64,000 nt of DNA from Symbiodinium sp. CCMP2592 (taxonomy: Eukaryota; Sar; Dinophyceae; Suessiales; Symbiodiniaceae). Numbering within the stretch: position 1 is the stretch's first letter; each line of letters opens with the position of its first letter. The stretch lies in NCBI GenBank assembly GCA_905221615.1, contig CAJNDT010001280.1, forward strand, positions 164,410-228,409. The letters run 5' to 3'. Below the pieces are notes generated by a model. The model was not told the DNA's origin. It did no database searches and worked only from the letters and a program-made list of their open reading frames with translations. Shown piece after piece: positions 18,818-61,343 of the stretch. The position numbers and the translations under genes were made by a program.

Positions 18818-18824
18818 CGTCTCC

Positions 18825-40195: not shown

Positions 40196-40548
40196 GGAGT
40201 GTAGTTAAAGTTAAAGCACTCTGGGCGCGATGGTTCAAGCTAATTTGTGTAGTGCTACTGTCGGGACAGGGCCCTCGAGTTTGGGGTTCGAGCTTACGGA
40301 AGGACTTCCGGCTTGAGTTTCTTAGATTTGGGAGTTTCCGAAAATAGGGGACCCTAATATAGTACTCCAAATAGCAGGCTCCTTATTATAAGGACCCCAA
40401 AATAAGGTACCCCCAATTTTCGGAAACTCCCATTTATTGTCCTGCCGAAGGCTTGAAGGGCTGTGGTTCGTCGCTGCCGCCTGATGCACCATGCCGCACG
40501 AGATCTGCCAAGACTGGAGCCAGAACCTGCGCTCACTGTAGGGCTTAG
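40196..40548 (+). CDS. Two-exon gene fragment spanning a family A palindromic element
   Basis: Exon 40196-40333 follows a TCTAG|G acceptor and encodes a Lys-Ala-Leu-Trp-Ala-Arg-Trp-Phe-Lys-Leu segment ending Glu-Phe-Leu-Arg-Phe-Gly. The donor GT at 40334 lies inside the left inverted repeat of the element at 40330-40431. The acceptor at 40449-40450 (CCGAAG) gives an in-phase second exon, Leu-Lys-Gly-Cys-Gly-Ser-Ser ... Thr-Cys-Ala-His-Cys-Arg-Ala, with TAG 40546-40548. The intron would be 117 nt. Family unknown; upstream exons not assigned. Confidence 0.45.
40330..40431. mobile_element. Palindromic element family A, copy 1
   Basis: GGGAGTTTCCGAAAAT and its exact complement bound 102 bp. The interior (GGACCCTAATATAGTAC...TCCTTATTATAAGGACCCC) is itself palindromic. 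ATTT flanks both ends, a possible 4-bp target duplication. Confidence 0.9.
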
Positions 40549-40574
40549 CTTAGGGTTTAGGGTTTAGGGCTTCA

Positions 40575-40800
40575 GTGGTTCAGGGGTTACATGGCGATGG
40601 GATTGTGGAGTCAGGGTTCATGGCTTCATGCAGAGATTCGTTGTTGGTGACTCCTAGTATAGTTGAGCTGCAGCTTCAGTCTATAAGCCGCGATGGCAGC
40701 ATGAGGTCTATTCCATGTCTTCCTGGTGCTGGATTCGCAGGTTTTGAACATCTTCAGACCACGAAGGATTTAAGGTTTAGGATTAGGATCCCACCCTCCC
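40575..40800 (+). CDS. Candidate coding segment, unidentified
   Basis: The + frame from about 40610 encodes Phe-Met-Ala-Ser-Cys-Arg-Asp-Ser-Leu-Leu-Val-Thr-Pro-Ser-Ile-Val-Glu-Leu, then Leu-Pro-Gly-Ala-Gly-Phe-Ala, running to 40817. A second + frame is also briefly coding-like. A TTCGCAG acceptor-like site at 40734-40740 may mark an exon edge. Confidence 0.25.
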
Positions 40801-41956
40801 CACTAACAGTTAAATGAAGGTTCCTTCTATAACACACAGGCGGAAATGAGCACCAGGGTTTGAATGTCAGCTCTTTAATTCAAGACTTCAGATTGCGAGT
40901 CTCGGGCTTCGAGACTCTGAACAGTAGGAACTCTGGGCTCGAAAACCTGAACCACAAGCATAGAACCCTGAAGCTTACAACCCTGAAGCCCTGAAACCCT
41001 AAACCTTTACAACCCTGAAGCCCTAAACCGTGAATCCTCAATCCCTCAAGCCGTGAGCCCCAAACTCTACTGACTGTGGCTGGGGCCCAGGCTGGGACGG
41101 GCCAGGATGCCAGCCCATCGGGCGTCGGCCGAAGCAACACCGCCTGAAAGTGTGAAGTTGCTCCCTTATGCTGGTTATTGTTGAGTCCGATTTAGGGCTT
41201 CGGGTTTTGGTAGGGTCTGATGTAGGTTTATGAGGCTCCGTACCCGCCTTTAGTTAACAAGCAATATCGCCCCTACGAACACTGCAAAACACAGTCGGCG
41301 GGGCCTGTGCCGCAGTGCGTCCCGAATTCAAAGGTGGAAAGCCTCTTGATACCAGCATAGGGCCGGAGTAAGTAGTATTACTATTCCCTTACGGTCCCGA
41401 ATACTCATCATCACACAATGGTTTATGCTCGAAGCCCTATGCCCTAAACAGTCATCTATAAATCGAGCGGAGTTTGCTATCTCTTGGGCCCATGGAAGGA
41501 AGCCCGATCCGGAAAGTCCACTCTAGAAGACTGCGCTGCATTGACTGTGCACAGCAACTCTGGACACCTGTCTCATATTGAGTTTACATTCTTGTTTGCA
41601 TATCAAACCTCTTGCAAATTCTGAAAGACAGCTTACAATGCCACGACAAATACACCAGAAGTTAGACTGCCACGGCGGGTGAAGTCTATACTATACACCC
41701 GAGCTTCGTCTTGGGCTCATGGTAATTCTTATATAGGAGTTTACGTTCAGGAAACTTGGGTTTAGATGTTGAGGGCTCGGACCAGAGATGAAGGGCTTAG
41801 GTTGCAGCATCCCACAACTGAAAACAATAAATTCCCCGTTAAGACCCTCAGCTCTGCCCCCTCCCCCACCCCCCGGACATCCCCGCACCCCTTCCAACCT
41901 CTAAGCCCAGAACGCGAAACCCAAAGAACACCCTATAGTCCCCAAAAAGGCAACCC

Positions 41957-42226
41957 TCATATATAGAACCCATGTAGCAACATTTGTGCAGCTCCAAGGT
42001 GCTGCTGACGCCCGGGCATCGTCATCCCAAGCGCCATGGAGAGACGGTAACGACGTCTCCAGTGCCTTGCAGCAGCAGAGTCTTTTTGGACAGGTTCCCA
42101 CAAGGGTTCCTGCACTTTTGATGCTTCAGGAAGTTGACAGCTGAGGGGACAACCCTCGGCGGCAGTTGGATTTAGACAGCATATCTTGGCTTTGTTGAAC
42201 TTCCCTCCTGGGAGGTATGACGTCAA
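41957..42226 (-). CDS. Candidate coding block, 89 codons, unidentified
   Basis: The minus frame is open from 42226 to TAG at 41957. It encodes a Cys/Pro segment, then Glu-Ala-Ser-Lys-Val-Gln-Glu-Pro-Leu-Trp-Glu-Pro, an Arg-rich helix (Ala-Ala-Arg-His-Trp-Arg-Arg-Arg-Tyr) and a Met/Gln/His tail. Composition is protein-like throughout. No motif identifies a family. It may be an exon rather than a gene. Confidence 0.35.
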   Translation of the reverse strand: MTSYLPGGKFNKAKICCLNPTAAEGCPLSCQLPEASKVQEPLWEPVQKDSAAARHWRRRYRLSMALGMTMPGRQQHLGAAQMLLHGFYI

Positions 42227-42262
42227 GCTGCTTCCAAACCGTCCTCCTGGGCCTGGGATACT

Positions 42263-42360
42263 GTTGATGATATTATAAATCCTGCATTACCTTAAGGACC
42301 CTAAACTATGGGAATTATGGTATATTCCTTTTTATGGGCAATGCAGGATTTATATCATCA
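42263..42360. mobile_element. Palindromic element with TGATGATATTATAAATCCTGCATTACC ends
   Basis: The left arm is matched by GGGCAATGCAGGATTTATATCATCA at the right, about 98 bp in all, singleton in this window. Confidence 0.85.
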
Positions 42361-42475
42361 GCCGTATGAGACCGACGACCTCAACCCTTCTTGGGGGCCG
42401 ACTGCCCTGCCCTGTCTGGCAGTCTGCCTGGTTTGAGGACCGGAAGTCTGAACCAGCCCCTGACCCTCCTTACCA

Positions 42476-42564
42476 GTCTCCATTGCAGTTCCCTTTTTGG
42501 GGTTACCTTTTGGGATCCTTAATATAAACTTGGTTAAACCAAAAAAGGAACTACAATGGAGACT
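42476..42564. mobile_element. Palindromic element family D, copy 1
   Basis: GTCTCCATTGCAGTTCC...GGAACTACAATGGAGAC, 89 bp. Just outside lie CTTACCA on the left and ATAGGTGAG on the right, i.e. donor-like words on both strands. Confidence 0.85.
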
Positions 42565-42756
42565 ATAGGTGAGTCCTGAACCTCTACCATGTACCCACAT
42601 GGCTTATACTTTGGCCCCAAGGCACCTTGCACAAGTGTATTGGTAGGTATCTCTATCAGGGCCCCTTTTTGGGGGTCGTTGTTGCAAGGGTGCTGCTTTC
42701 TTTGGGGGTCCTAAAAAAAGACCCTAAATCTAAAGCACTACCCATATACTTTAGAA

Positions 42757-42845
42757 GGCCCCCACCCTGTAATAGTGGTATAATACGACTATAATAGGGC
42801 CCTAATATAATCCTTATAGTCACTACTACAGGGTGGGGGCCCCTT
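42757..42845. mobile_element. Palindromic element with GGCCCCCACCCTGTA ends
   Basis: GGCCCCCACCCTGTAATAGTG and CACTACTACAGGGTGGGGGCC face each other over about 85 bp. Copies of ACTATAATAGGG/CCTAATATA fill the centre. Confidence 0.85.
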
Positions 42846-42876
42846 CTAACATACACTTGTTGAGTACATGGGCCCT

Positions 42877-42972
42877 TGAAGATCCGACAGGACCTCAATT
42901 TCTGGCCTCGGCCTTGGCCGAGCTCATCAAGGCCTCGACCTTGGTTGGCTTTTGTGACATGACCAAGGCGTA
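42877..42972 (+). CDS. Candidate terminal exon
   Basis: After a CTTGAAG acceptor-like word, the + frame reads Pro-Thr-Gly-Pro-Gln-Phe-Leu-Ala-Ser-Ala-Leu-Ala-Glu-Leu-Ile-Lys-Ala-Ser and stops at TAA 42970-42972. Amphipathic and helix-like, but short. Confidence 0.3.
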
Positions 42973-43019
42973 ATATTGAACTGGGAAGTATTCCTTACGT
43001 AATCATATTCAATCTGCAC

Positions 43020-44100
43020 CCACCTGAAAAGCAAAAATTCGACTTAGCCTAAACCTTCGGCTGATATTCTTGCGGATGTACTGCTGCAACTTCTCAGACA
43101 GCTGCTATTGGTGTAAAGGCTTCTATTGCTTAGCACCATGAACAATGTCACAAAGATCATGGCAGTATCGTTATTGTTCCTGAGAGTTTGATAACGACAA
43201 TCACCGATAGTGTGAATGGTTGTGGATACGACGACTCGAAACATCAGTCACGGCTGTTGTTGCTAGTTGCATGTTTGGTGACAGTCTTCATTACTACTAT
43301 CTTACTATGGCTCATGTCCATATCGCACGTCGTTGCTAGATACTACTAACTTGTCTCAAAGCTAGCAGCACTTGCAACCACTGTTCCCTTCCATAACATG
43401 GCATAGCTGCTGTAACGAGCATCGCAAGTACCTGTATGCGCTAGCACTCATGTGCACACGACTTGTTTTAAAAACTGCGTGGATACACGTTCAACGCTCA
43501 CGGTCTGTAGACCGCAAAGCGACGATCTATCATGTTCAATGTATAAATGTGGCGCCTGGCATGTCTGGCTAGTCGGAGAAGGGTTTGGGAATATGCTCGG
43601 ATTGAAACCAAAAAGAGGTCGTGTGGTCCTACCGACCGATAACGATCCATCAATAACCATAACCATAACCCAGCAACCCTAAAAACATAGCTCAACTGCA
43701 TCGAGGCTGGCATCTTGAGAAGTGTACCATGGTACCTGGTAAGGACCCACCCACCAAACCAAACAACAAGCCTGAGGTCTATTAGGAGACTCGGACCCTC
43801 AGCCATCCAAACCCCAGCCACAAGGTTCGAACCCTACCTGCCAACACGCAAACCCTGAAACTCGATAGCCTAAAACACCTAAACCCGAAAAACTGAGCCT
43901 GACAGCCTGTGAGCCCCGCCAAGAAACTTCAAACTCCAAGTGCCGAAACACGATGAACCCCCTAAACCTTGAACCCTTAAACCCCAAACCCCTAAACCCT
44001 GAACCCTAATGATGAACCCCGGATTGTCCCATCAGGTTCTGAAAAAAAAGGCACCGGCCCGGCGTCCGGCCGGCAACGCCGCGACAACGGCATCCTGGGT
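43020..44100. other. No supported gene; decayed CCCTAAA-type text after 43.8 kb
   Basis: 43.0-43.7 kb is mixed sequence with several 60-80 codon ORFs on both strands, none convincing. 43.80-44.02 kb is CCCTAAACC-like, and 44.10-44.22 kb is GGTTTAGGG-like, i.e. opposite orientations about 100 bp apart. Confidence 0.45.
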
Positions 44101-44443
44101 TTAAGGTTGGGCCAGGGTTTAGGGTTTAGGGTTTTAGGTTGGTAGGGTTTAGGGTTTAGGGTATAGGGTTCAAGGTTGATGGTTTTGGGTTTGGGGTCAG
44201 GGTCTGAGATAGAGGGTTTACGGTTCTGAGGTGTGTGAAGAGGGTTCCAGAATGGTCTTAAGAAGTTCTATGCGGGCTTCATAATCAAGCTGCCCTGGGT
44301 AAGGGAAGGGCTTCTGCTTCATCGAGGCTTCGTAAGGTTGTTTGAAAACTTCCACGGGTTTAAAAAGAGTCTAAAGGGCTTAAAACGGGGTTCAAAGAAA
44401 CGTGTTTTCTTCGGTGTTTTGTGCTTCGAGGATTTGCAAGAGT

Positions 44444-44768
44444 TTATGTAGGGCCTTGAAGGGTTCGTGTTCCCGTTGATGTGTGAATAGGTGTATGGAA
44501 TGTAGCTGTGGGATCGATGTCTTGAGTTGGGCCTGGCTTGGCTGTAGGATTGGTGAGAGAGTGAGTGAGTGTGTGTTTGTGTGTGCAGAGCTTCAAAATT
44601 TCGGTCGTGGTGGCCGAATTTATCCTTAAAAACTGGCTTTGCGCTCCAGCCTTTGCCCGTGATGCCCAAAGAGAAGCATCCTCCAAGCTTGCTCTGCTCA
44701 GAACCCCAGTGACCTGACCGTCAGCAGATGCTGATTTCGTGATGTGGCTCGAGCGCTGCGGATGTACT
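44444..44768 (-). CDS. Two-exon coding block with a 20-nt intron, unidentified
   Basis: Exon 44768-44714 (after a CAGCAG acceptor) reads Tyr-Ile-Arg-Ser-Ala-Arg-Ala-Thr-Ser-Arg-Asn-Gln-His-Leu-Leu. The frame would stop soon after, but removing 20 nt (44713-44694, GTCACT...GAGCAG) continues in phase as Ala-Ser-Leu-Glu-Asp-Ala-Ser-Leu-Trp-Ala-Ser-Arg-Ala-Lys and Ile-Leu-Lys-Leu-Cys-Thr. The frame then stays open to TAA at 44444 through a Thr/His/Pro-rich, less convincing stretch. The first ~57 residues are the credible part. Confidence 0.45.
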
Positions 44769-44965
44769 CTGCTGTAAATGCTACCAATCCCCTGCGCATG
44801 AACCCCGCAAACCCAAGTTCACCAACTTCTACCCTGCCTTACTACATCCCCAAAAACCAAGCTCCTGTGTATTTCTTCCCTTGCACCCTCTGTAAAGCCC
44901 AAATCATAAGCCCTTAAGCCTTAAGGCCAACCTGCCTTTTTCGCCCTAGTGTACTAGCCAGAGAG

Positions 44966-45056
44966 CCCAATACCCCTCAATTAAGGCATATGGCTTAAAT
45001 TATGTAGGGCATCATATTGTGATTTAAGCTATATTCCTCAATTAAGGGGTACTGGG
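44966..45056. mobile_element. Palindromic element family B, copy 1
   Basis: CCCAATACCCCTCAATTAAGG and CCTCAATTAAGGGGTACTGGG bound 91 bp. The right end overlaps the donor of the minus exon 45150-45053. Confidence 0.85.
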
Positions 45057-45150
45057 TACATGGGGCGGTCCTGCGCGGCTTTGGCCGCAGGGTCGGCGTA
45101 AAGGTCCACACGAAGAGGTTCGGGACCTCGGGAAAGTTCGTGGAAAACTC
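45053..45150 (-). CDS. Candidate exon with donor inside a family B repeat arm
   Basis: After a TGCAAG|G acceptor, the minus strand reads Val-Phe-His-Glu-Leu-Ser-Arg-Gly-Pro-Glu-Pro-Leu-Arg-Val-Asp-Leu-Tyr-Ala and on to Met-Tyr-Pro. It ends at GT 45052, which is the GT of CCCAGTACCCC in the arm of the palindrome at 44966-45056. The element would then be the 5' part of the intron, with a CTGGCTAG acceptor candidate near 44954. Composition is strongly protein-like; family unknown. Confidence 0.4.
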
Positions 45151-45231
45151 CTTGCAGTCAGATGTTCCCCAAGAAGCCGGCAATCTGGGTAGTAGGTTGC
45201 AAAGGCTTAGTGGTATTATCAGGTTATATAT

Positions 45232-45333
45232 GGGAGTTTCCGAAAATAGAGGACCCTAATATAGCACCCTAAATAGTAGGATCCTTATTATAAGGACCCC
45301 AAAATAGGGTAACACCTTTTTTCGGAAACTCCC
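45232..45333. mobile_element. Palindromic element family A, copy 2
   Basis: Same ends and interior as copy 1. ATAT flanks both sides (45228-45231 and 45334-45337). Confidence 0.9.
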
Positions 45334-45696
45334 ATATCGGGGTTGTTGTTGGATCTGTTGTCTTAGCAAAGCAGTTCTGAGGTTAGGATCGAAGAAATCG
45401 GGCTTTATTCCGGGTGAGGGAGATGTGCGTTCAGCGGGTTTGAGGGCAGTTTTGGGGGCTTGGAGGAGATAAAGTCTGGAGGTTACATCAAGGTTTCTAG
45501 CGGCTCAGGGTTTAAACGCCGAACCCTTGACCATAAACCCTGCGTTGTGCTCCAAGCCTTGGCTGCTGGCAACCGGGCATTATCGTGGTGGGGTTGCTTA
45601 GAGGAACCTGTAGGGCCGTAGGGTTGTTGCCAGGGGTTTCAGTCAGGGTAGAGCAGGGTTTTATACCAGATGTAATGAAGGTGAAGAAGAACCAGC

Positions 45697-45996
45697 TTGC
45701 CTTGCGTAACTTTTGCTGAAAAAGAAACCACGACCCAAGAAGATACCAACAGTCAGAATAGGGCTTCGGCGCACAAAGCAGTCTTTCTTTTGACTCTCTC
45801 TCTCATATGGGTGTGGATATACTTGTTCCGTTTATTCATGGAAGCCGAAGCAAGATATAAGAGGAGTACTATTGATAGTTATGCAGGCTTCCATGGGCCC
45901 TGGAACCGAACCTTGAAACTTCGGAGCAAAAGACTCCCCCGACATCCTATACCGCGGAACATTCAAGCACGCAGCCCTGCAAATCACAACACTTGA
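45697..45996 (+). CDS. Hypothetical ORF, 99 codons, with one hydrophobic helix
   Basis: The + frame ATG 45697 to TGA 45994-45996 includes a hydrophobic run Val-Phe-Leu-Leu-Thr-Leu-Ser-Leu-Ile-Trp-Val-Trp-Ile-Tyr-Leu, followed by basic residues, which could be a membrane segment. The antisense frame is also open and protein-like over 45832-46014, so strand is uncertain. Confidence 0.25.
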   Translation: MPCVTFAEKETTTQEDTNSQNRASAHKAVFLLTLSLIWVWIYLFRLFMEAEARYKRSTIDSYAGFHGPWNRTLKLRSKRLPRHPIPRNIQARSPANHNT

Positions 45997-46217
45997 AAAA
46001 TACCTTGAAACCACAAACCTTCATAGCCCCACCCGAAGGCCCTAGATCCAAAGCCCCATGAACCCTAAGCCCCTAAAGCCTACACCCTACAGACCCTAAA
46101 TCCAAAAATGATTAAGCCCCCTAGGTTTCCTGCCAACTCCGTTCGGGGTCTCGGCAGAGTTGGCCAGAGGCTGCGTGAGCGCGGCTGTCTGTTCTTGGAC
46201 TTGAGAAATTGCCTACA

Positions 46218-46315
46218 GTCTCCACTGTAGGCCTCTTTTAAGCTAACCAACTTGTATGATCACGATCCTAAGATATTGACTTTGGCGAGCCAAACAAAGG
46301 AGCTACAATGGAGAC
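46218..46315. mobile_element. Palindromic element family D, copy 2
   Basis: GTCTCCACTGTAGGCC...GGAGCTACAATGGAGAC, 98 bp, followed directly by AACAGGTAAGG, a consensus donor context. Confidence 0.8.
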
Positions 46316-46393
46316 AACAGGTAAGGACACTTCGGGTTGTTCCTAGCAGTTCGCTTATCGAAGTAAAAGCTTGGGGATTTAGGGCTGTGGGTT

Positions 46394-46493
46394 TCCCAAA
46401 GAGCCTAATACCCTTTACTTAAGGAATATGCCTTAAATTATTGGGGCCTTCATAAAAAAAATTAAGGTATATTCCTTATTGGGCTCTTTGGGG
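46394..46493. mobile_element. Palindromic element family B, copy 2
   Basis: CCCAAAGAGCC...AAGGAATATGCCTTAAATTAT and AATTAAGGTATATTCCTTATTGGGCTCTTTGGGG share the family B core. Confidence 0.8.
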
Positions 46494-46672
46494 TTGGAGC
46501 CTCTTCAGGGTTGGCTCAGAACAGTTGAAGTTAATAGCCACCTACCATCATAGGACCCTCAGAAGTTCCTTTCAACCAATTCGAACCCAACCTTTGACCA
46601 ACGCATTCAGTGAATGTCCATACAAGGAAACCCCGTCTCAATCTCATCTCAATCCGCTCCAATCGTGGGATG

Positions 46673-46964
46673 ACAGGAGGTGGGGTGGTTCGAAGAATAT
46701 TACCAGCAGTCCCTAATCCTGCGTCACCTGCAGACTCGTCGAGGCAAATGCTCTGGGCCAAAACATCTGCAGCTCCTGCGCCGACAACAGGCCAACCAAG
46801 TCTGCACTAATCTCCTCTCATCGTCCTTATGTTACCATAATATCGCCCATACTCTGTTCTGGTGGGAGAAAACTCTTCTAATTGCGAATTTTCGCCGAAA
46901 GGGATGGCTGGCGCTGCGCCTTGAGCTTCCGTGTGGAATGGTTGGGTTGTTTGGTTTTGATTAG
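46673..46964 (+). CDS. Candidate coding block, ~94 codons, unidentified
   Basis: The + frame reads Gln-Glu-Val-Gly-Trp-Phe-Glu-Glu-Tyr-Tyr-Gln-Gln-Ser-Leu-Ile-Leu-Arg-His-Leu, then a basic Gln-rich helix, a Cys-Tyr-His-Asn-Ile-Ala-His segment and a hydrophobic end, with TAG 46962-46964. Well mixed and without repeat character. Upstream exons not identified. Confidence 0.35.
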
Positions 46965-47297
46965 GCCTTGCTCGAGCGAATCTGGGTATGATCATCCCCC
47001 TCCACGCGTTCGCAACGGTCTGGGTTGGGCCGCTTCGCACATGCCCTTAAGGCTCTAGGCTCTTGTATTTGGGGGGCAATACGGGGGGACCGCGAACGCA
47101 CAGCACACAACCATATATACTCCACATTTCGAGTTCTGCAAAGACGTGTTCTTCCAACAAGCTGGCTGCATGGCCTGGATGATCACCAAAGTAAGCCGTT
47201 TCCGCGTCGAACATTTTCAGTGCCTCCCAGCCTCAACCGACATAATCAGAGCTGTCGCGCCCTGACGCCCGGCAAACCAAATCCAACTGAGAACACA

Positions 47298-47351
47298 AGC
47301 ACTCTCTCTCTCTCTCTCTCTCTCTCGCGCTATCTCTCTTGTTCTTCTCTC

Positions 47352-47392
<41 letters not shown>

Positions 47393-47400
47393 TTTTTGTC
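47298..47400. repeat. (CT)n microsatellite, interrupted
   Basis: CT dinucleotide runs with CGCG and TTCTT interruptions; the only such tract beyond 19 kb. Confidence 0.9.
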
Positions 47401-47674
47401 TCTCACTCTCTGACTTTCTCTTTCTCTCCGCCCTCAACCATTCAATCCTTCCTCTGCCTCATGGCGAATCCAAACCATGCCCCTGCTCTGTGCACGTCTC
47501 CTCCGACGGTTGCACCTCGAGCCAGTAGGCAGCAAATGCGATATCGGACCGTTGGGTAAAGGGCGCTTTCAGCACATTTCATGTCATGGGTCCATTCAAG
47601 TGTGTATGCTTGTATATACTGTATGAGTGCATTTATTTGTCTGTTCATTTTTTGTGTAAATATGCAAGTGCACA

Positions 47675-47791
47675 TATGTGTATGTATATATATATATATA
47701 TATATACACACGTGCATATACATAAATAAATAAGTAAATAAATAAATAAATAAATAAAAATAATTAAACAAATAAATAAATAAATAAATAA

Positions 47792-47825
<34 letters not shown>
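47675..47825. repeat. (TA)n and (TAAA)n microsatellites
   Basis: A TA run, then about 15 AAATAAAT tetramers, then another TA run. Confidence 0.95.
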
Positions 47826-47828
<3 letters not shown>

Positions 47829-48299
47829 ATAACTATGGTGTATATACGTACTTATGTTTGTATGTATGCATGTATGCATGTTCACCTAGTTTTGAACGGG
47901 TATGCGCGACGGAAGGAAGGAAGGAACGAATGCATGAGTCTAGGCATGTGGAGATTCCATCTGCTGTGACTCAGAAAGCCGACCCGATTCTTCCCTTGAC
48001 ATTACAACCAAGCCCAAGCCCTCATCCTGCACACATCAAACACACCAGGCACCTTGCCGATTCCTTTCAAACACATCTGCAGCACATGTGTATGAGTGGT
48101 AGCAAGTATGCACCAGGTTGACTCCCCGTCTTGTATAAGACCATGTCTGGAACACTAGCAGCTCATACATACAAAGCAGCTAGGCCTTCACATCTTGAAA
48201 CCTAAATCTCCAAATTAAACCTCTCAACCTACAGCCCTTGAGCATCTGCTTGTCTTTGGAATCCCACTATTCAGGTTAAGTCAGAAAGCAGACTAACAG

Positions 48300-48527: not shown

Positions 48528-48649
48528 ACGTTCTCATGCACTGTCCCTGAAATGACATGTCTACTATGTCAACTTACGGCGTCCGTGTCCCACCTCTTCG
48601 AACCACTCCCTTGGGAGATGCCAAGGGACCGAAGTGGGCCCTGGGCTCA

Positions 48650-48708
48650 TAGGGTTTAGGGTTTAGGGTTTGGGGTTTAGGGTTTTAGGGTTTAGGGTTT
48701 GGGGTTTA
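48650..48708 (+). repeat. Interstitial TTTAGGG array
   Basis: About eight TTTAGGG/TTTGGGG units, + orientation, between two coding blocks. Confidence 0.85.
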
Positions 48709-48832
48709 CGTGGTCTCTACTTGTACAACATTGTAGGAATTGCTTCTGAAGGCACAGCGGTCCTTGCCTCACCCGGAGTAGGGTTGCTGAGGGTTTGGAG
48801 GGATTGAGACCTAGACTTTATTCTGCTTGTAG

Positions 48833-49250
48833 AGGAGTGTTATTGGGTACCACAGCCCTACTTTGAATCCTGCTTCTGCTCCTCCCGAAGACTCAGATCC
48901 CCTGTCCAAGTTGAACTGTGGATTGAAGTAAACATCCCAGACCCCCGGGAGGATCTAGAAAGTAGATCCCCTAATTTGGGGCCCTATACTACTAAGGGTA
49001 CTTTATTAGGAACCCCCATTAAGGGATCTACTTTTTGGATCCTCCCGGAGGTCTGGGATTGAGTTTAGCGTGGGATTGGGAGGTCTTCTTGGAATTAGAG
49101 GGGCGGCCTGAGGAGCAGGACGAAGATCGACTCGTGATAGATGTGTGGCCGAACTTTCAGCCACAAACAGGAAATGCACACAAAGTTCAAGCACACTGCG
49201 ACACGACGACGAAACAAAACTCACACTACACCGGGGAAGAGGGAGAATAG
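48833..49250 (+). CDS. Two-exon gene fragment whose intron is a palindromic element
   Basis: Exon 48833-48927 encodes Val-Ile-Gly-Tyr-His-Ser-Pro-Thr-Leu-Asn-Pro and Pro-Leu-Ser-Lys-Leu-Asn-Cys-Gly-Leu plus two bases (AA). The 136-nt segment 48928-49063 (GTAAAC...GATTGAG) can be removed in phase. The next exon reads Leu-Ala-Trp-Asp-Trp-Glu-Val-Phe-Leu-Glu-Leu-Glu, an acidic stretch, Leu-Val-Ile-Asp-Val-Trp-Pro-Asn-Phe, then a Gln/Thr/His tail ending at TAG 49248-49250. The intron is almost entirely the palindrome bounded by ATCCCAGACC. No family recognised; upstream exons unknown. Confidence 0.5.
48932..49058. mobile_element. Palindromic element with ATCCCAGACC ends (family J)
   Basis: ATCCCAGACCCCCGGGAGGATC and GATCCTCCCGGAGGTCTGGGAT face each other over about 127 bp. 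The donor GTAAAC lies a few bases outside the left end and TGAG follows the right end. Confidence 0.85.
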
Positions 49251-49952
49251 GCCTTAGGTTGCTCATTTCATCCAGCTGGCCCAGGGACACCGTGCCCGGA
49301 AGATGAACACTGAAAATTTACGGCCTGGGCGGTGACACAGGGACCCGAGCCGTGCTACGTATGGGTTCCAAAATCCCAGTTCATGGCTTCGGATTTAGGG
49401 GTCTGGGAGTTTAAGGGCTTTGAGGCTTTAGGGGTTTGGGGTTTAGGGGTCCAGGAGTTTAAGGGCTTTGAGGCTTTAGTGTTGGTTTAGGGTTTAGGGT
49501 TTAGGGTTTAGGGTGGGGTTTAGGAGTTGACGAATTTTCAAAACCCACCGTTTGCTAACCAGTACTGCAGGAGATGCCGGGCCACCTTCTCCAACTGGGC
49601 CAGTGCAAAGGATCTCCAGAACCTGGTCATGCTTAGCCTAAATCCTAAACACTCAAAGCCAAAACCTAACCTGCTGGAGGCACCCTACACCCTAAACCGG
49701 AAAGGACAAAACTAAACCTCAACACCCTAAACCCTAAAGCGGAAAGGACAAATATAAACCTCAACACCCTAAACCCTAAATCGGAAAGGACAAAAATAAA
49801 CCTCAACACCCTATATAAACCCTAAACCGGAGAGGACAAAACTAAACCTCAACCTTTGGAGACGGACTTTTCGGAGGACAGCTTCAGCGCCAGGAGTGCA
49901 CCGAGGCCCTAGCCTGAAAAGCGGAATCCTCACCTACTATAGGGGCCTAAAT

Positions 49953-50055
49953 GGGAGTTTCCGAAAACAGGGGACCCTGATATAGTACCTAAATATAGTA
50001 GGATCCTTATTATAAGGACCCCGAAATAAGATACCCCTATTTTTCGGAAACCCCC
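49953..50055. mobile_element. Palindromic element family A, copy 3
   Basis: Family A ends and interior. AAAT on both flanks. Confidence 0.9.
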
Positions 50056-50306: not shown

Positions 50307-50628
50307 GCTCTGAGCTTCGTTTCCACTGGGGCAGACCAGCCTTTGCCCAGGAGTCTCGCTGTGCGGTGTCGCCCGTCCTCCATGTGGGAGTTTCCGAAAA
50401 TTCAGGATACCTTATTTTGGGATCCTCATAATAAGGATCCTACTATTTAGGGTAAGTACTATAATAAGGATCCTACTATTTAGGGTAAGTACTACATGAG
50501 GGTCCCCCATTTTCGGACACCCCCATGTCAACAGGTTTTGTTGGGGACGGGGAGGCTCCCGGTTGCAGGCTGAGACAAAGTCAGCAAATAATCACGATCA
50601 TAGCAATACTAGAAATTACGATGATTAA
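50307..50628 (+). CDS. Two-exon coding block spanning a family A element
   Basis: Exon 50307-50389 follows TTTTAG|G and encodes Ala-Leu-Ser-Phe-Val-Ser-Thr-Gly-Ala-Asp-Gln-Pro-Leu and Arg-Pro-Ser-Ser-Met-Trp plus GA. The donor GT at 50390 is inside GGGAGTTTCC of the element. The acceptor AACAG at 50530-50534 gives a 145-nt intron and an in-phase exon, Phe-Cys-Trp-Gly-Arg-Gly-Gly-Ser-Arg-Leu-Gln, then an Asn/Asp/His tail with TAA 50626-50628. The second exon is the weaker part because its tail is low-complexity. Confidence 0.35.
50386..50524. mobile_element. Palindromic element family A, copy 4, with internal duplication
   Basis: Family A ends; flanked by ATGT on both sides. It is longer than its relatives because AAGGATCCTACTATTTAGGG is repeated inside (about 50433-50490). 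Confidence 0.85.
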
Positions 50629-50671
50629 AAACAACCTAGGACTATACAAATACAGTAATGATTCATGATCA

Positions 50672-52332: not shown

Positions 52333-52344
52333 AAATCTGTTCAG

Positions 52345-52650
52345 GCTCGAACTGAGACCGTCAGAAAAACTGTCTGTTGGCACATTGCCATGGAGTTTGC
52401 TTTTTAGAAGTGCACGGAGGAGATCTGTCACTGACTAGGCTGCTAGCAGCGTATGGTCAAGTCCGACAGGCTGAAACACAGCCAGAGCCGGTTCAAGACA
52501 AACTTACCTTTGGTTAGTAGGGAATGGAGGAATGGGGTACAATTATAACGACTATTGCTACCATTCTTTCATTCCCTTCTAACCAAAGGCAAGCAAATCC
52601 ACTTGAAGAGCCCGTCATTCTCCTCCTAGTAGTAGCGCCGCAGGTTCATA
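52345..52650 (-). CDS. Candidate split gene around a family E element
   Basis: Minus segments: about 52645-52605 (Glu-Glu-Asn-Asp-Gly-Leu-Phe-Lys-Trp-Ile-Cys), then the element at 52503-52593, then about 52500-52440 (open in two frames, one reading Leu-Ala-Val-Phe-Gln-Pro-Val-Gly-Leu-Asp-His) and about 52430-52350 (Val-Thr-Asp-Leu-Leu-Arg-Ala-Leu-Leu-Lys-Ser-Lys-Leu-His-Gly). The element again lies between coding-like segments, but phase across it was not fixed. Confidence 0.3.
52503..52593. mobile_element. Palindromic element family E, copy 3
   Basis: CTTACCTTTGGTTAGTAGGGAATGG and the inverted CTAACCAAAGGCAAG; shares ends with 27423-27513. Confidence 0.85.
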
Positions 52651-53275: not shown

Positions 53276-53672
53276 GGTCCAGGGTAGAGCTTGGCGGACC
53301 AAGGCACTCCAACAGCAAGTAGAGAGATCTGAACAGGTGCAGTGATCACAAGCCAAAGAGTCGCAATATTGTAATCCACACCTTCGGCCCTGCTTCAACA
53401 GCTTGCGGCTCCCATCTTAAGATCGACTGACGGAGAGATTCTGCACGCCAACGACTGCCACCACTGCTTCCACCCTGCACCAAACCCGAGGCCCTTAACC
53501 CTCCGCCCTCAAGCTCCCGAAACGAAGCCCTAGAGGTTTAGGGTTTAGGGTTTAAGGACCTAGGGCTTATAGGGTTTAGGGCTTTAATGGGCTTTAGGGG
53601 TTTGGGGTTTAGAATTTGGGCGTGTCCAAAGACTCTCATCATCTCTCATCCCTGCACCCTAACTCTTGATTC

Positions 53673-53873
53673 CTATGCGAAGCGTGCCATGCCGCCTTTT
53701 GCAGTGCAGCAGTGGCTGCCTGGGTACCGCTCGACAGACAACTTCTGAGCCTGGGACTGAGGGGGCAAAGACGTGAAGCGATATTCAATGAAGTAACGAA
53801 GTGCTATTTTAAGGTTTTTGGAGTCTTCTTTAAGGGTCTTGCAAAGATTCCATGTGTGGGCTCTTGAGGTCAA
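53673..53873 (-). CDS. Candidate exon or small gene, 66 codons
   Basis: The minus frame reads His-Thr-Trp-Asn-Leu-Cys-Lys-Thr-Leu-Lys-Glu-Asp-Ser-Lys-Asn-Leu-Lys-Ile-Ala-Leu, then a Pro/Gln stretch and a Cys-Cys-containing end, with a stop at 53673. The first 30 residues are strongly helix-like. Unidentified. Confidence 0.35.
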   Translation of the reverse strand: MTSRAHTWNLCKTLKEDSKNLKIALRYFIEYRFTSLPPQSQAQKLSVERYPGSHCCTAKGGMARFA

Positions 53874-53947
53874 TTTGAGGTTTCCTCAAGTGGTATGAGG
53901 ATAGCTTCGTGTGGCTGGTTGTTTTTGTTTGCGCTGGTGTGCCTAGT

Positions 53948-53990
53948 GCTGCTGCTGCCGCTGCTGCTGCCGCTGCTGCTGCCATTCAAT
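53948..53990. repeat. (GCTGCTGCC)n microsatellite
   Basis: Short run of GCTGCTGCTGCC units. Confidence 0.85.
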
Positions 53991-54439
53991 GCCACCATAC
54001 TGAATACTGTGTCACAGTGTCTGTTGCGCCGTTAGTTTCCAATGCATAGCTTGTTCTTGATATGCTTATACAAGTACTAGTTTGCCGCTTCCAGCTGGCG
54101 CAGGACGTAAGAGTCGTGGTTCTTGCCGTCATCACCATTGTCGGAGTTCCACTAGTCGCGAAGGCACTACAATTACTATAGTTCTTCTATTCAGACCTTA
54201 CTAGTGTAGTTGCTTCTTCCGCCAGCATCGGTCTCAGAAACGGCAGCTGTAGCCCATCCCCCGAGGCCTATGTCTGAGACCAGAGAACTCCCAACAAAAC
54301 CTGAAAGCCCCAGAGCCCGAAACGAAACCCGAAGCGCCGGAATCCCAGAAAGCCTCTGTCGAGGCTGTCTTCGTGGGAGCATCCAGGGGTTTAACGAGTT
54401 AAGTGCATTATAGGGTTTCAAACTGTGTGACTAGGGGTA

Positions 54440-55560
54440 GGGCACGGTTTAGGGTAGGGTTTGGGTTCAGGGTTTAGGGGCGCTTGAGTTCTTGGACTTT
54501 TGGTCCAGCGTTCTAGGGTCCTGAGCCTTAGGTTCGAGGGTCTTGCGCAAAGCCTTTAATCGTGAAGGAAAACGGAGTCAACAGTAGAGTTGCAACCCGT
54601 TCTTGAGAGCTAGTTTGAGATTTTGGGGTCCGTCGCAGTCGCAGCATGCAAAGGCTCAGGCAAGAGGCAGGAGACGTCCTGGAATCTTTCCTGCCGAGCA
54701 CCAAATTAAGAGCGAGGGGCCAAAAATCGCCCAAAAGAGCACGGATTGTAGGCTTAGGGCTTATAGGTTAGGGTGCAGAGTGAAGAGAGAAGAGTTTGGG
54801 TTCGGTTCCCAACAAGCAAGAAGATAATGGCATGATGTTCTTGCGAAGACCAAACCCTAGATGGCCTTGAAGGCTACGACGACTTCCCAAAGAGGGAACC
54901 CAATCCCCGCGCCTTGAAATGCCGGGGAACTGTTGGGCTGGTTGTCCAGAAGCCGGGTTGCAGACGGGAGATATCTACCGAGCTACATAGAAGATGCCAA
55001 GACACAGCATTTTAAGAGTGATCTAGGTGGGGCTTTCAAAGCCTTTGAAAAACATTAGTAAATAACATCCTCTTAAGCCCAATAAGGTAAAATATAAAAT
55101 GTCCCAAAGCCCTACCTAGTGATTCAACAGCCAAAGAGACGACAGCAGCTCTAGGTCTGGTTGGGGGCTCGGCGACACAAGCTTTTTCATCGATCTTGCA
55201 AAGGGCAAGAAGCCGATCATGAGTGTGAGTGTTCAGGCGACAAGTGGCCCAAGCCTCTAGAGAAAAACAGTGGTAGAGAACTCCACATCAGAAATCATTG
55301 CTAGAAACTACGGCAGGTACCTGTCTGTTCGACAGGCTCAGAAAATGGGTTCGGTGTCACCTGCACACAGCCCCCAAACCCCCAAAACTAAATGACCCTG
55401 ATTGGTACGAAATAACCATAACCAAAACTAAATAACCATTATCCAAAACTAAATAACATAATTGGTACTGGGCCTGTAACTCGAACAAAACAGGCGGTGC
55501 GCCGGAGACAAGGTAGTTCAAAACACGCAGCTCTGAACCTTCAAGACTCAAGCCCCGAAG
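54440..55560. other. No confident gene; small coding-like pieces only
   Basis: Mostly decayed TTTAGGG-like text and unique sequence. A + frame at 54603-54827 (Arg/Gln/Lys-rich) is weakly coding-like. At 55380-55470 the words AACCATAACCAAAACTAAATAAC repeat imperfectly. Confidence 0.4.
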
Positions 55561-55567
55561 CCTCAAA

Positions 55568-55690
55568 ACCGAATGCCTAACCCTAAACCCCAAAACCTCT
55601 AAACCCCCAAAACCCTAAACCCCTAAACCCTAAACCCCTAAACCCTAACCCCTAAACCCTAAACCCCTAAACCCAAAACCCTAAACCTTT
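55568..55690 (-). repeat. Interstitial CCCTAAA array
   Basis: About 15 CCCTAAA/CCCCTAAAC units in CCCTAAA orientation. Confidence 0.9.
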
Positions 55691-55762
55691 CGACCATGAG
55701 GCCCCGAAGCCTTCAGGCTCCAAGACTCTTGCAGAACCCTGAAGGGCCCTTGAAAGGGAAAA

Positions 55763-55842
55763 GGGTTTAGGGCTTAGGGTTTAGGGTATAGGGTTTAGGG
55801 TATAGGGTTTAGGGTATAGGGTTTAGGGTTTAGGGTTTAGGC
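55763..55842 (+). repeat. Interstitial TTTAGGG/TATAGGG array
   Basis: About ten units alternating TTTAGGG and TATAGGG, opposite in orientation to the array 75 bp upstream. Confidence 0.9.
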
Positions 55843-56410
55843 TAGATGGAACCTTTGAATTCTAGTTGAAGCCCTCCCTTAAACCCCCACTTCGCCTCTT
55901 TGTCGACCTTTTCCAGCTCCAAAGCAGAAGCCTCAACAAGCTTCAAGGTTTACGGCTTAAGGGTGTAAGGGTTTCGGGATTTTGGCTTTCAGGGCGTTAG
56001 GGTTGAGGGGTTTAAGAGTCTCTTTGCCAAGAGCTTCTTGCCGAGGACTCGGCTAAGGGATCCTAGTGGGGTGTTGAGGGCCTTTCAGGGTTCACGTTTC
56101 ATTTGTGTTAAGCTTTGTTGGTGGTTTTTAAGCCTTGCCATGGGCTTCAGGATTCAGAAGTTAGGATTTGATATAGGGGCCTTCATCATCAGGCCCAGGG
56201 TTCGGATGTACATGATGTATATATATATATATATACTGATGATAAGGAGCCCTGAAAAAAGGGAAAACTACTGTTCCTACTGCTGGCCTTTCCGCCTGGG
56301 GGTTCAGGGCCAGGGTCTGGAGCCCACCCTGCCTGAGCCAGGTCGCTGGCTCGCTGCGGTAGCAAAGGTTCCAGGCCTCAGCGAGCCGATTGCAGAAATG
56401 GGATTCGTAA

Positions 56411-58210
56411 GTACCCTTATATCGTATAGTACCCTTATAGAACTCTTAAAGAACCCCTAAAAGGATCGTATAGTACCCTTATAGAACTCTTAAAGAACCC
56501 CTAAAAGGATCGTATAGTACCCTTATAGAACTCTTAAAGAAATCCTAAAAGGATCGTATAGTACCCTTATAGAACTCTTAAAGAACCCCTAAAAGGATCG
56601 TATAGTACCCTTATAGAACTCTTAAAGAACCCCTAAAAGGATCGTATAGTACCCTTATAGAACTCTTAAAGAACCCCTAAAAGGATCGTATAGTACCCTT
56701 ATAGAACTCTTAAAGAACCACTAAAAGGATCGTATAGTACCCTTATAGAACTCTTAAAGAAATCCTAAAAGGATCGTATAGTACCCTTATAGAACTCTTA
56801 AAGAACCCCTAAAAGGATCGTATAGTACCCTTATAGAACTCTTAAAGAACCCCTAAAAGGATCGTATAGTACCCTTATAGAACTCTTAAAGAACCCCTAA
56901 AAGGATCGTATAGTACCCTTATAGAACTCTTAAAGAACCCCTAAAAGGATCGTATAGTACCCTTATAGAACTCTTAAAGAACCCCTAAAAGGATCGTATA
57001 GTACCCTTATAGAACTCTTAAAGAACCACTAAAAGGATCGTATAGTACCCTTATAGAACTCTTAAAGAACCCCTAAAAGGATCGTATAGTACCCTTATAG
57101 AACTCTTAAAGAACCCCTAAAAGGATCGTATAGTACCCTTATAGAACTCTTAAAGAACCCCTAAAAGGATCGTATAGTACCCTTATAGAACTCTTAAAGA
57201 ACCCCTAAAAGGATCGTATAGTACACTTATAGAACTCTTAAAGAACCCCTAAAAGGATCGTATAGTACCCTTATAGAGCTCTTAAAGAACCCCTAAAATG
57301 ATCGTATAGCACCCTTATAGAACTCTTAAAGAACCCTTAAAAGGATCGTATAGTACCCTTATAGAACTCTAAAAGAATCCCTAAAAGGATCGTATAGTAC
57401 CCTTATAGAACTCTTAAAGAACCCCTAAAAGGATCGTATAGTACCCTTATAGAACTCTAAAAGAACCCCTAAAAGGATCGTATAGTACCCTTATAGAACT
57501 CTTAAAGAACCCCTAAAAGGATCGTATAGTACCCTTATAGAACTCTTAAAGAACCCCTAAAAGGATCGTATAGTACCCTTATAGAACTCTTAAAGAATTC
57601 CTAAAAGGATCGTATAGTACCCTTATAGAACTCTTAAAGAACCCCTAAAAGGATCGTATAGTACCCTTATAGAACTCTTAAAGAACCACTAAAAGGATCG
57701 TATAGTACCCTTATAGAACTCTTAAAGAACCCCTAAAAGGATCGTATAGTACCCTTATAGAACTCTTAAAGAACCCCTAAAAGGATCGTATAGTACCCTT
57801 ATAGAACTCTTAAAGAACCCCTAAAAGGATCGTATAGTACCCTTATAGAACTCTTAAAGAACGCCTAAAAGGATCGTATAGTACCCTTATAGAACTCTTA
57901 AAGAATCCCTAAAAGGATCGTATAGTACCCTTATAGAACTCTTAAAGAACCCATAAAAGGATCGTATAGTACCCTTATAGAACTCTTAAAGAACCCATAA
58001 AAGGATCGTATAGTACCCTTATAGAACTCTTAAAGAATCCCTAAAAGGATCGTATAGTACCCTTATAGAACTCTTAAAGAACCCCTAAAAGGATCGTATA
58101 GTACCCTTATAGAAATCTTAAAGAACCCCTAAAAGGATCGTATAGTACCCTTATAGAACTCTTAAAGAACCCTTAAAAGGACCCTGATAGTACGCTTATA
58201 GAACTCTTAT
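56411..58210. repeat. 44-bp satellite, 40 full units
   Basis: The unit reads CGTATAGTACCCTTATAGAA followed by CTCTTAAAGAACCCCTAAAAGGAT. CGTATAG occurs at 56423 and the last full unit begins at 58139, a distance of exactly 39 x 44. No unit has gained or lost a base; variation is by substitution only (for example AACCACT, AAATCCT and AATCCCT in place of AACCCCT). The array ends in one or two diverged units. No spacers of unique sequence, so not a CRISPR array. Confidence 0.97.
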
Positions 58211-58219
58211 GGAACCCTT

Positions 58220-59140
58220 ACTTAGTTGCTGAGTTCATAAGCCCCTATAGTGGGTGATACTATCCCAAAAAGTGTCAAGGGTATCCACTCAGCCACTAAG
58301 TTTAGGCTTGTTATGAAGCGTGATGACTGAGGGTTTAGGTTTAGGGTTCAGGGTTTCAAAAGCGTCGAGAGTTTGGGACGGGTAGGTAGGCGAATTGATC
58401 CCTGTCGGCACGGGGTGAGGTATTCAAAGGCCGGGTCGAATCGTTACACCCATACCCTACCGGAAACCCCCCGAAACCCCAAAACGGTGGACGCGTCCAA
58501 CAATAAATCCCAGTAAGCTCAGCCTAAGTCTAAACCCATATTCTGAGAGAGGCTTTGAGGCTCAAGCCGGAGTTCGCCAGGCCTGCCACGGGCAAGCAAT
58601 TGCAAGCAAAGTAAAGCTCTGAATCAATGATACAGATTGGTATAATGTCCCCTGGCTACCAAAGGGTTTTCTGGACACAAATCCTCTGTTTCTTGATGGG
58701 CTCAAAGAGCCGGATCACTACTGTGATCACTTTAAAGGCGAGTCAGCATGAATGCTGCTCTATGTGTGGCTATTGCACACACTGCATGGTGCTGATCTGA
58801 CCGTGGTTGTAGGTGCTGATGTAGCTGTAGCTGATGCTATGGTTAATACTGGGCGAGTTTAGTTGAGGTGATGAGGTGCGTTTGTTGCTGCTGTCAATGC
58901 TGATGATGTCGTCGCCATGGGCGTTGGTATTGATGCCCCAGCTGCCTTGGGCCCCACCTATATAGACCCAAACAAAACCCGATAAGCCCTAAACGGTTTA
59001 GGGCTGAACCTCAGAATTCGTCAACGCCCCTACCCCTCAAGCCAAGAACTGACAGCCTACCCCTGAACCCTAAAGCCCAAAAGCCAAAACCCAAGCCCAA
59101 ACAGCCCAAGGCCTGCAACACCCACAAATCTCTGAATCTT
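58220..59140. other. No supported gene
   Basis: Unique and TTTAGGG-decayed sequence. 58.78-58.95 kb is rich in GCTGATG words. No ORF over 60 codons. Confidence 0.5.
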
Positions 59141-59148
59141 TAAGAAAT

Positions 59149-59250
59149 GGGAGTTTCCGAAAACAGGGGACCCTAATATAGTACCTTAAATAGTAGGATC
59201 CTTATTATAAGGACCCCGAAATAACGTACCCCGACTTTTTGGAAACTCCC
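59149..59250. mobile_element. Palindromic element family A, copy 5
   Basis: Family A with diverged right arm (TTTTTGGAAACTCCC). No clear target duplication. Confidence 0.85.
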
Positions 59251-59343
59251 AACCCCTGCCCTGCGCCTCCCAGAGCCCTCGCGATCGGCGGTCCTACGCC
59301 CGACAGCAGTACCAAGGCCGAAGCCTGAGAGAAGGGAGACTAT

Positions 59344-59427
59344 GGGAGTTTCCGAAAATTAGGGATACCGTATTTTGGGATCTCTTATACTTATAACAAG
59401 GATACTACTATTAAGGGTAAGGGAGAA
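59344..59427. mobile_element. Palindromic element family A, copy 6, truncated
   Basis: The left arm and about 60 bp of interior are present. The right half is replaced by a family B element starting at 59428, so this copy was probably disrupted by insertion. Confidence 0.7.
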
Positions 59428-59536
59428 CCCAGAGCCTCCAAAACCCCTTAATTAAGGAATATACCTTAAAGTATAATAGGATCCCTAATATGATTTAAGG
59501 TATAGTCCTTAATTAAGGGGTTTTGGAGGCTCTGGG
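59428..59536. mobile_element. Palindromic element family B, copy 4
   Basis: CCCAGAGCCTCCAAAACCCCTTAATTAAGGAATATACC and its complement bound 109 bp, the most perfect family B copy in the window. Confidence 0.9.
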
Positions 59537-59541
59537 AATAT

Positions 59542-59644
59542 GGGAGTTTCCGAAAATTAGGGGGTACCATATTTGGGGATCCTTATAATAAGGATACTAC
59601 TACTAAGGGTGCTGTATTAGGGTCCCCTATTGTCGGAAACTCCC
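59542..59644. mobile_element. Palindromic element family A, copy 7
   Basis: Family A ends; ATAT directly flanks both sides (59538-59541, 59645-59648). Confidence 0.9.
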
Positions 59645-59816
59645 ATATAACTCCTTGTAGTTTGGGTTTGAGCGTTGAGGCCCGGAAGTCTAGGGTTGAG
59701 GTGCTTAAGCGCTTGTTTTCTGCCTGTCTTCGGTATTCAATTAAATGGTTTTGGGCTTTCGGGCTTACTGACCTATGCCTTTAGAAGCTTCGAGTCGCAT
59801 CATCGCGAGGAAGTAC

Positions 59817-59890
59817 CTGGACCCCCAAAGTATGTAGAATAATAGCCTTTTATAGGTATTGGGCCATTATTTTACCTACTTTGGGGGGCT
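59817..59890. mobile_element. Short palindrome with CCCCCAAAGTA ends
   Basis: CCCCCAAAGTATGTAGAATAATAG and CCATTATTTTACCTACTTTGGGGGG are imperfect inverted repeats, 74 bp. Confidence 0.7.
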
Positions 59891-60009
59891 TAGGTAGGGG
59901 ATCACTGGCCCTGGCTTCTGTCAACTACATCCTCGCAGGTCTCGGGATGAATGGGGTTCGGGATCCGCCGGAGATGGGAGGGTTTGGGGTTTTTAGTAGA
60001 AGCCTAACA

Positions 60010-60102
60010 CTTGGAAACCCAATAGCCTCAATCCTTAGAGTAATGTATAGGGAATCCCAGTACCATTTGGCCTGAATCCGGTTTCTGACTTTCCAGGGTT
60101 TA
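60010..60102. mobile_element. Palindromic element family H, copy 2
   Basis: Matches 25422-25509 through CCTCAATCCTTA, GGGAATCCCAGTA and TTTGGCCT, with diverged arms. Confidence 0.75.
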
Positions 60103-60143
60103 CTGTAGGCTCTTGGGTCTTGGGGCTGCGTGTAGGATATCCG

Positions 60144-60341
60144 TTACCCAGCTTCGGAGATAAAACCAATGTCCAAGTTTTGCAACTGAAGAGCCCCAAA
60201 CCCGAAAGCTGCAACCGGACTCCGACAGGCGAAACCGACTATGGGCTTTTGTTTAACAAACTCTTCGACTAGGTGTGGGCGGGTGAATATTTCATGATTA
60301 GATCTACAAGGGGCCACCGTAAGTCCCGAAGGACATGACAT
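60144..60341 (-). CDS. Candidate exon or small gene, 65 codons
   Basis: The minus frame reads Ala-Pro-Cys-Arg-Ser-Asn-His-Glu-Ile-Phe-Thr-Arg-Pro-His-Leu-Val-Glu-Glu-Phe-Val, then a Gly/Phe/Ala-rich stretch and Asn-Leu-Asp-Ile-Gly-Phe-Ile-Ser-Glu-Ala, with a stop at 60144. Well mixed and free of repeat character. Family unknown. Confidence 0.35.
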   Translation of the reverse strand: MSCPSGLTVAPCRSNHEIFTRPHLVEEFVKQKPIVGFACRSPVAAFGFGALQLQNLDIGFISEAG

Positions 60342-61241
60342 TCACGTCACAGCAAGCCCGGGAGCCTACTTTAAGCGGCCACCCCGCTTGTTTGCATGGT
60401 CCCGATCGCCCTGCAAAAAGGCCATGGCAGCTTATTTCTTAAGGCAGCTGGAAGCCCGTAGACCCAAAACGGCCCTCAACCCCGAACTCCTAAACAACTT
60501 TAAGCTTAATTAATTTAACCCTAAAGCTAAACGACACTAAGTCCTAAAGCCCCAAACCCCAAAATGTGTGTACCTTCCCGAGGTCGGTACTGGCAAGTGT
60601 GAGGCAGACTCGCCTGCCGCACTCCAAACCAGCGGACCCAACTTCACACATTTTTTTGGTGTCTGTTGAAAGTGCATCGGACCTTTTCGAGCAATCCCCA
60701 GCAAGCCCACTCATCATTTAGGGTTTAGTGCCGGGTTTAGGGCTCAAGAAATTAAACCCTTGTTGATCACCCCTGGCTCCACCGCGAAGGATTCAGTTAT
60801 AGCCGAAGCAAAGATAGAGTACATCTTCGTGCACGCGGTCTTTTATTCTGAAAAGCTAGAACAAGACACATCCCCAAAACATCAGAAGGCTTCTATCCTA
60901 ACACTCCAGATGCCACAATGTAGGTAGCATCTGCAAACACGTAGACCTCAACTAAACATCTTTTTCTGGTAGTTATTTTCTGTCTCCGCTGTCAAGGATC
61001 CCCAAAACAAAACTGTGTAATCAAGCAAAACCAGCCCTTAGACGTAAGACAGAAATCATCCTAAACTACACCGCTCCGACTCGACTACTCTTATATAGAA
61101 AGGGCCCTAAACCTTGAACCCTAAACCCTTATCAAATAGCTCCTGTTACGAAAGGCCCATCAGAAGCCTGCCGCCCGCCGGGCCGTCGACCGACCGAAGA
61201 ACGCAGCGAGGAGAGCCTGACTTGGTGACTAATCAAGTCAT

Positions 61242-61343
61242 GGGAGTTTCCGAGAATTTGGGGTACCTTATGTCGGGGTCCTTATAATAAAGATCCTACT
61301 ATTTCGGGTACTTTCTTAGGGTTCTCTATTTTCGGAAACCCCC
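61242..61343. mobile_element. Palindromic element family A, copy 8
   Basis: GGGAGTTTCCGAGAATTTGG...ATTTTCGGAAACCCCC. The upstream + frame (Arg-Ser-Leu-Pro-Pro-Ala-Gly-Pro ... Gln-Val-Met-Gly) is coding-like up to the GT in the left arm, like copies 1 and 4. No partner exon identified. Confidence 0.85.

Follow-up and report, generated by a model that had tools for sequence, protein, structure and literature searches.

The window analysed here, a stretch of 64,000 nucleotides from Symbiodinium sp. CCMP2592 (C1280:164410-228409), contains a 723-codon open reading frame (ORF), two near-identical sets of ORFs, telomere-like arrays, many hairpins and, as the subject of this study, a family of short palindromic elements bounded by terminal inverted repeats (TIRs). 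By combining the window with searches of the whole assembly (1,098,105,373 bases in 5,383 contigs), we arrive at the view that this family is a miniature inverted-repeat transposable element (MITE) targeting A-N-N-T, which probably forms introns where the target is AGGT, using the AG|GT that the target-site duplication (TSD) places on both sides, and that the copies in the window itself are probably not introns.

Palindromic elements in the window

With up to three mismatches allowed, the 16-bp end GGGAGTTTCCGAAAAT matches the window at 15 places, against a mean of 0.58 and a maximum of 2 in 100 shuffles, and these ends pair up into seven complete copies (of about 102 bp) and one lone left end at 59344 (Table 1); the palindromic family described in the initial annotation is thus real. 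Its matching AT-rich 4-bp flanks at five copies are likewise borne out (that is, the flanking 4-mers are identical at five of the seven complete copies, with no match at 59149 or 61242). Apparent subtypes among the copies are the two orientations of one family, orientation having been called individually for each complete copy; positions 59147-59245 and 59548-59646 are 82% complementary. The copy at 50386 is longer than the others because an inner stretch is repeated. No complete copy in the window (zero of seven) has an AGGT or ACCT duplication, and the window copies, lacking AGGT duplications, are probably ordinary MITE insertions rather than introns.

An abundant MITE with 4-bp duplications

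Assembly-wide, the 16-mer end with at most one mismatch is matched 28,448 times on the forward and 28,539 times on the reverse strand, compared with 14 and 19 times for the same 16-mer read backwards. For closer study we used 73 distinct complete copies: the 7 of the window, another 3 found in 11 unselected 10-kb stretches and 63 from C1 and C2, the last from stretches picked for an exact 16-mer, so that end conservation in this sample is biased. In 36 of the 73 copies the two flanks are identical over exactly 4 bp (8.4 in shuffled pairings, maximum 15), and at 2, 3 and 5-8 bp agreement does not rise above the shuffled maximum. The target is A-N-N-T, with ATAT the most frequent. A consensus of 102 bp was built from 62 copies of 95-112 bp, from which the median divergence is 7.8%, and it is predicted to fold into a strong hairpin on both strands (-44 and -55 kcal/mol). 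With a 16-bp TIR and a TSD of fixed 4-bp length, the element is a MITE of about 102 bp with the TIR GGGAGTTTCCGAAAAT and a very high copy number. It has no match in Rfam at gathering score. Viral relatives were considered and rejected: the exact 16-mer has three matches in viral contigs, and the surroundings, in the stretches read, are unlike the element. At L008 (1501-1811), a complete copy is followed by two extra right ends about 100 bp apart, a local tandem amplification in which the first two right ends are followed by ACCTTAAA.

Most of the insertions sampled appear to fall outside exons. When the element is removed together with one TSD, 8 of 71 copies (11%) leave a fully open 300-nt frame (best of six), versus 29% of 5,000 random sites drawn from the window and the unselected stretches, a set inflated by the repeat-rich frames of the window. 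By this evidence the sampled copies overall, and by the same evidence the window copies, are not exonic.

AGGT copies and their reading frames

The strict pattern AGGT-GGGAGTTTCC-N{70,95}-GGAAACTCCC-AGGT, searched assembly-wide, returned 49 forward and 34 reverse matches, that is, 83 copies, with none in the backwards control; the 83 include at least one likely duplicate pair, at two places on C57 lying 10 kb apart. Among pattern variants, ANNT gave 14,110 strand matches and AGNT 739, and copies with AGGT on both sides make up about 1% of those with perfect 10-bp ends. We read 40 of the 83 AGGT copies with 200-nt flanks. A frame that stays open for 140 nt or more to either side of the AG|GT junction is present in the sense direction in 10 of the 40 and in the antisense direction in 3, and at other copies of the element in 8 of 140 strand-tests (Fisher p=0.0012 against the 10 of 40). 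For frames of at least 195 nt, the corresponding counts are 7 of 40, 1 of 40 and 2 of 140 (p=0.0004, 7 versus 2). The ten loci judged coding carry the element in both orientations (six and four), and their GT-AG lengths are 105-118 nt. If the ten long-frame AGGT copies are introns, the genome would, by rough extrapolation, hold between some tens and a hundred introns of this kind.

Homology across the AG|GT junctions

Pfam was scanned with 20 sense peptides from the 40 AGGT copies and with 20 control peptides from the longest frames at other copies. The clearest case is L092 (C363:204079-204187), whose joined peptide matches FKBP_C (E 3.5e-15, residues 75-134, junction at 67). A protein search with this peptide matched 302 proteins, of which 120 were listed; the best among the matches listed, the FPR2 protein from Symbiodinium sp. 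CCMP2456, shows 99% identity along the full 134 residues. The residues that straddle the element, K67 and V68, are adjacent without a gap in ten of ten aligned homologs, three of which are named as MMETSP transcript translations from other species, and an SGLQYK-type motif to the left of the junction is common to the aligned homologs. In a second gene, L109, a match to MIP (the aquaporin family; E 2.8e-12, residues 3-84) spans the junction near residue 46; when compared with aquaporin-4 in the PDB, the right half is clear (i-Evalue 0.00036) and the left half weak (12), and its frame of 138 nt places it just outside the ten long-frame copies. Weaker hints come from L115 (PPR_3, E 4.3e-5, residues 1-49, junction near 67) and L100 (Ion_trans, E 0.0077, below cut-off, residues 5-72, junction near 67). 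The remaining 16 of the 20 AGGT sense peptides have no Pfam match below E 0.01, and the 20 control peptides have nothing below E 0.029.

Homology continues across the junction in two different genes (FKBP homologs and an aquaporin-type domain), with hints in two more, all in the form of protein continuity. The AG|GT junction gives this continuity in both L092 and L109, the constancy of the position being by design, as the copies were chosen for AGGT. Read from protein continuity, splicing would be firm at one locus (L092) and indicated by a domain match at the second (L109). We infer that it is the GT and AG supplied by the AGGT duplication, and not a GT in the arm with a downstream AG, that fit as splice sites.

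Several observations weigh against reading the AGGT copies as introns. The FKBP_C match of L092 lies entirely to the right of its junction and the PPR_3 match of L115 only to the left; among the ten copies with long frames, Pfam matches below E 0.01 are confined to L092, L115 and L100, and for none of these three does Pfam show a strong match across the junction. Searched against the PDB, the L100 peptide had no match at E 0.001 and L091 had only weak acetyltransferase matches (best E 0.086). The comparison of sense with antisense is weak by itself (10 of 40 versus 3 of 40, p=0.03), 30 of the 40 AGGT copies are without a long frame, and L004, which also has an AGGT target, appears to be non-coding. 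Among random sites drawn from the window and the 11 unselected stretches, 20% reach 140 nt, a rate above that of the other copies and not much below the 25% of AGGT copies, so that the contrast to rely on is the one between AGGT copies and the other copies of the element; long repeat frames of the window belong to this random set. Moreover, 266 copies have AGAT on both sides, so that AGGT:AGAT is 83:266 (0.31), close to the ratio of G to A at that target position in the 73-copy sample (12:44 on the left and 11:38 on the right). AGGT copies are consequently not clearly in excess, and a genome-wide excess at introns is not supported. An enrichment of copies at introns, which the initial annotation had suggested as a check, was not found when judged by open frames and target counts rather than by gene models: the empty-site frames of the 71 sampled copies are shorter than random ones, and AGGT:AGAT is as target preference predicts.

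Proposed model and alternatives

In the model that we propose, a non-autonomous MITE, presumably mobilised by an unseen transposase, would insert at A-N-N-T (mostly at ATAT) and duplicate 4 bp. At an AGGT target, insertion would yield exon-AG|GT-GGGAG...CTCCC-AG|GT-exon, in which the GGGAG end would supply a purine run after GT and CTCCC a pyrimidine run before AG; with these runs at the TIR ends, the spliceosome could excise GT...AG (about 106 nt) as a canonical intron and thereby restore the pre-insertion site and the frame. As one inverted repeat forms the two ends, the element would work in either orientation, and the strand that reads AGGT would set the sense. Exonic insertions at other targets would presumably have been purged. 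We lean towards a reading in which an ordinary, AT-targeting MITE without specialisation for genes yields introns as a by-product: its A-N-N-T range includes AGGT, its TIR ends would be good splice contexts both ways, and its exonic survivors would be those at AGGT; the lack of an AGGT excess speaks for this.

The element might instead be a plain MITE without an intron-making role, with its AGGT copies lying beside exon halves by coincidence or in genes interrupted by the insertion. The scarcity of fully open frames at empty sites relative to random sites and the lack of an AGGT excess are both in keeping with this; however, an FKBP gene with an uninterrupted, 99% identical homolog has its frame restored exactly at AG|GT, the L109 junction falls within an aquaporin-family match, and a preference for AGGT targets would be unexpected in genes broken by insertion. 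We therefore consider this explanation unlikely.

The initial annotation had put the 5' splice site at a GT of the left arm (GGGA|GTTTCC), pairing it with a flanking AG downstream, and had taken the copies at 40330 and 50386 as introns between coding-like flanks on the + strand. Frames that join in phase do exist (97+31 codons at 40330 and 43+12 codons at 50386), but 13% and 42%, respectively, of random + strand sites in the window do equally well or better with an AG no farther than 45 nt away, so that both stand at chance level. In the protein database, 18 candidates shared words with the 40330 junction peptide but none reached E 0.001, a weak negative, as the search admits only proteins of similar length. 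Among 146 flanks, AG directly follows the 4-bp TSD in 20 and stands at offset 23 in 19, with about 10 expected, which would favour a downstream acceptor; these peaks, however, are two out of 40 offsets inspected, and the AGs at the two proposed junctions lie about 18 and 8 bases past the right TIR, not at the peak offsets. The AG peak after the TSD mirrors a C/T excess to the left of the TSD, and GT ends the left TSD in 27 of 146 flanks (about 8 expected); both excesses fit a symmetric target preference. GTTTCC is, in addition, a poor fit to the donor consensus. We regard this left-arm splicing as very improbable, and neither named copy is supported as an intron. What survives of the introner interpretation is the palindromic element with its TIRs, the 4-bp duplications and the apparent presence of introns among the genomic copies; the mechanism and the copies named for it do not.

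Likewise very improbable is a specialised introner aimed at AGGT in genes: long frames are commoner at AGGT copies than at others, yet the preferred target is ATAT, two-sided AGGT is confined to the small share of copies given above, and AGGT is not in excess.

Under the by-product model, one transposon family would be traceable from non-genic hairpin to intron, by a rule of four letters (AGGT) that can be counted. A single genome offers both AGGT copies (83) and near-miss AGAT copies (266) for comparison, which bears on whether such families are specialised introners or MITEs filtered by selection.

Other features of the window

Fourteen more hairpin elements, of 66-126 bp and with other terminal sequences, are scattered over the window (Table 1); those at 27428 and 52507 have CTTTGGTTAGTAGGGAATG in common. 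The genome may thus hold many hairpin MITE families, some possibly under the same AGGT rule. Near-identical ORF sets (frames of 163, 305 and 418 amino acids) occupy about 5938-11500 and 13243-18900, 7.3 kb apart, in the likeness of a tandem duplication. The 723-codon ORF (19545-21713) has 44 relatives at 29-99% identity, those with a species name being from Symbiodinium, and along 96% of its length shows 99% identity to a Symbiodinium sp. CCMP2592 protein; it has no Pfam domain at E 0.01 and is perhaps a member of a dispersed protein family. Across seven ORFs of the window, Pfam gave a single match, under its cut-off. Interstitial telomere-like TTTAGGG arrays lie at 43960-44160, 48660-48710, 49440-49510 and 55579-55841.

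Table 1 Palindromic element copies and further hairpins in the window (window positions)
Feature	Position	Strand	Remarks
Complete copy, 102 bp	40330..40431	+	TSD ATTT; intron 1 of the initial annotation (unsupported)
Complete copy, 102 bp	45232..45333	+	TSD ATAT
Complete copy, 103 bp	49953..50055	+	TSD AAAT
Complete copy, 139 bp	50386..50524	-	TSD ATGT; intron 2 of the initial annotation (unsupported)
Complete copy, 102 bp	59149..59250	+	TSD mismatched (AAAT/AACC)
Half copy, left end only	59344..59424	-	Adjoins hairpin 59428-59536; inner limit and orientation by eye
Complete copy, 103 bp	59542..59644	-	TSD ATAT
Complete copy, 102 bp	61242..61343	-	TSD mismatched (TCAT/TTGT)
Further hairpin	22055-22135		
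Further hairpin	27428-27508		
Further hairpin	28669-28768		
Further hairpin	32614-32694		
Further hairpin	39138-39222		
Further hairpin	39428-39530		
Further hairpin	42274-42354		
Further hairpin	42475-42564		
Further hairpin	42757-42841		
Further hairpin	46395-46492		
Further hairpin	48934-49059		
Further hairpin	52507-52589		
Further hairpin	59428-59536		
Further hairpin	59822-59887		

Relation to known MITEs and introners

MITEs in general are short, have TIRs and TSDs, reach very high copy numbers and apparently lie mostly outside genes; the present family departs from this in that a minority of its copies sits exactly as introns would. In the literature on dinoflagellate and Symbiodiniaceae introners and on Symbiodinium MITEs and introns, with supplementary tables outside the search, we found no description of the sequence of this element, and a text match for the 11-mer gggagtttccg returned only papers whose titles are unrelated to dinoflagellates. 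The family is probably a further member of the dinoflagellate introner families, and one that may already have been tabulated.

Introners with TSDs and TIRs are established, including those of S. microadriaticum with 4-bp TSDs, and some introner families elsewhere draw both splice sites from the insertion site, as described by Gozashti et al. 2022 (PMC9860276); for Symbiodiniaceae, a further study puts introner-containing genes at 3.2-6.3% (PMC10522408). The introner elements of the dinoflagellate Amoebophrya resemble the present family in forming hairpins and in having inverted (8-20 nt) as well as direct (3-5 nt) repeats, but are defined mainly among non-canonical introns (Farhat et al. 2021, PMC7789003), whereas GT-AG splicing is suggested here. 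Florenciella introners, which belong to another lineage and are likened by description only, share the feature that neither splice site lies inside the element, according to the legend of Fig. 2E in PMC9860276. Closest in description is introner family 1 of S. microadriaticum, probably of the same genus, which has 4-bp TSDs, TIRs and a similar length (115 positions in the example of Fig. 2B of PMC9860276); by that account, and compared by description rather than sequence, its elements carried the 3' splice site and took the 5' site from the TSD, whereas in the family described here both sites would come from the TSD.

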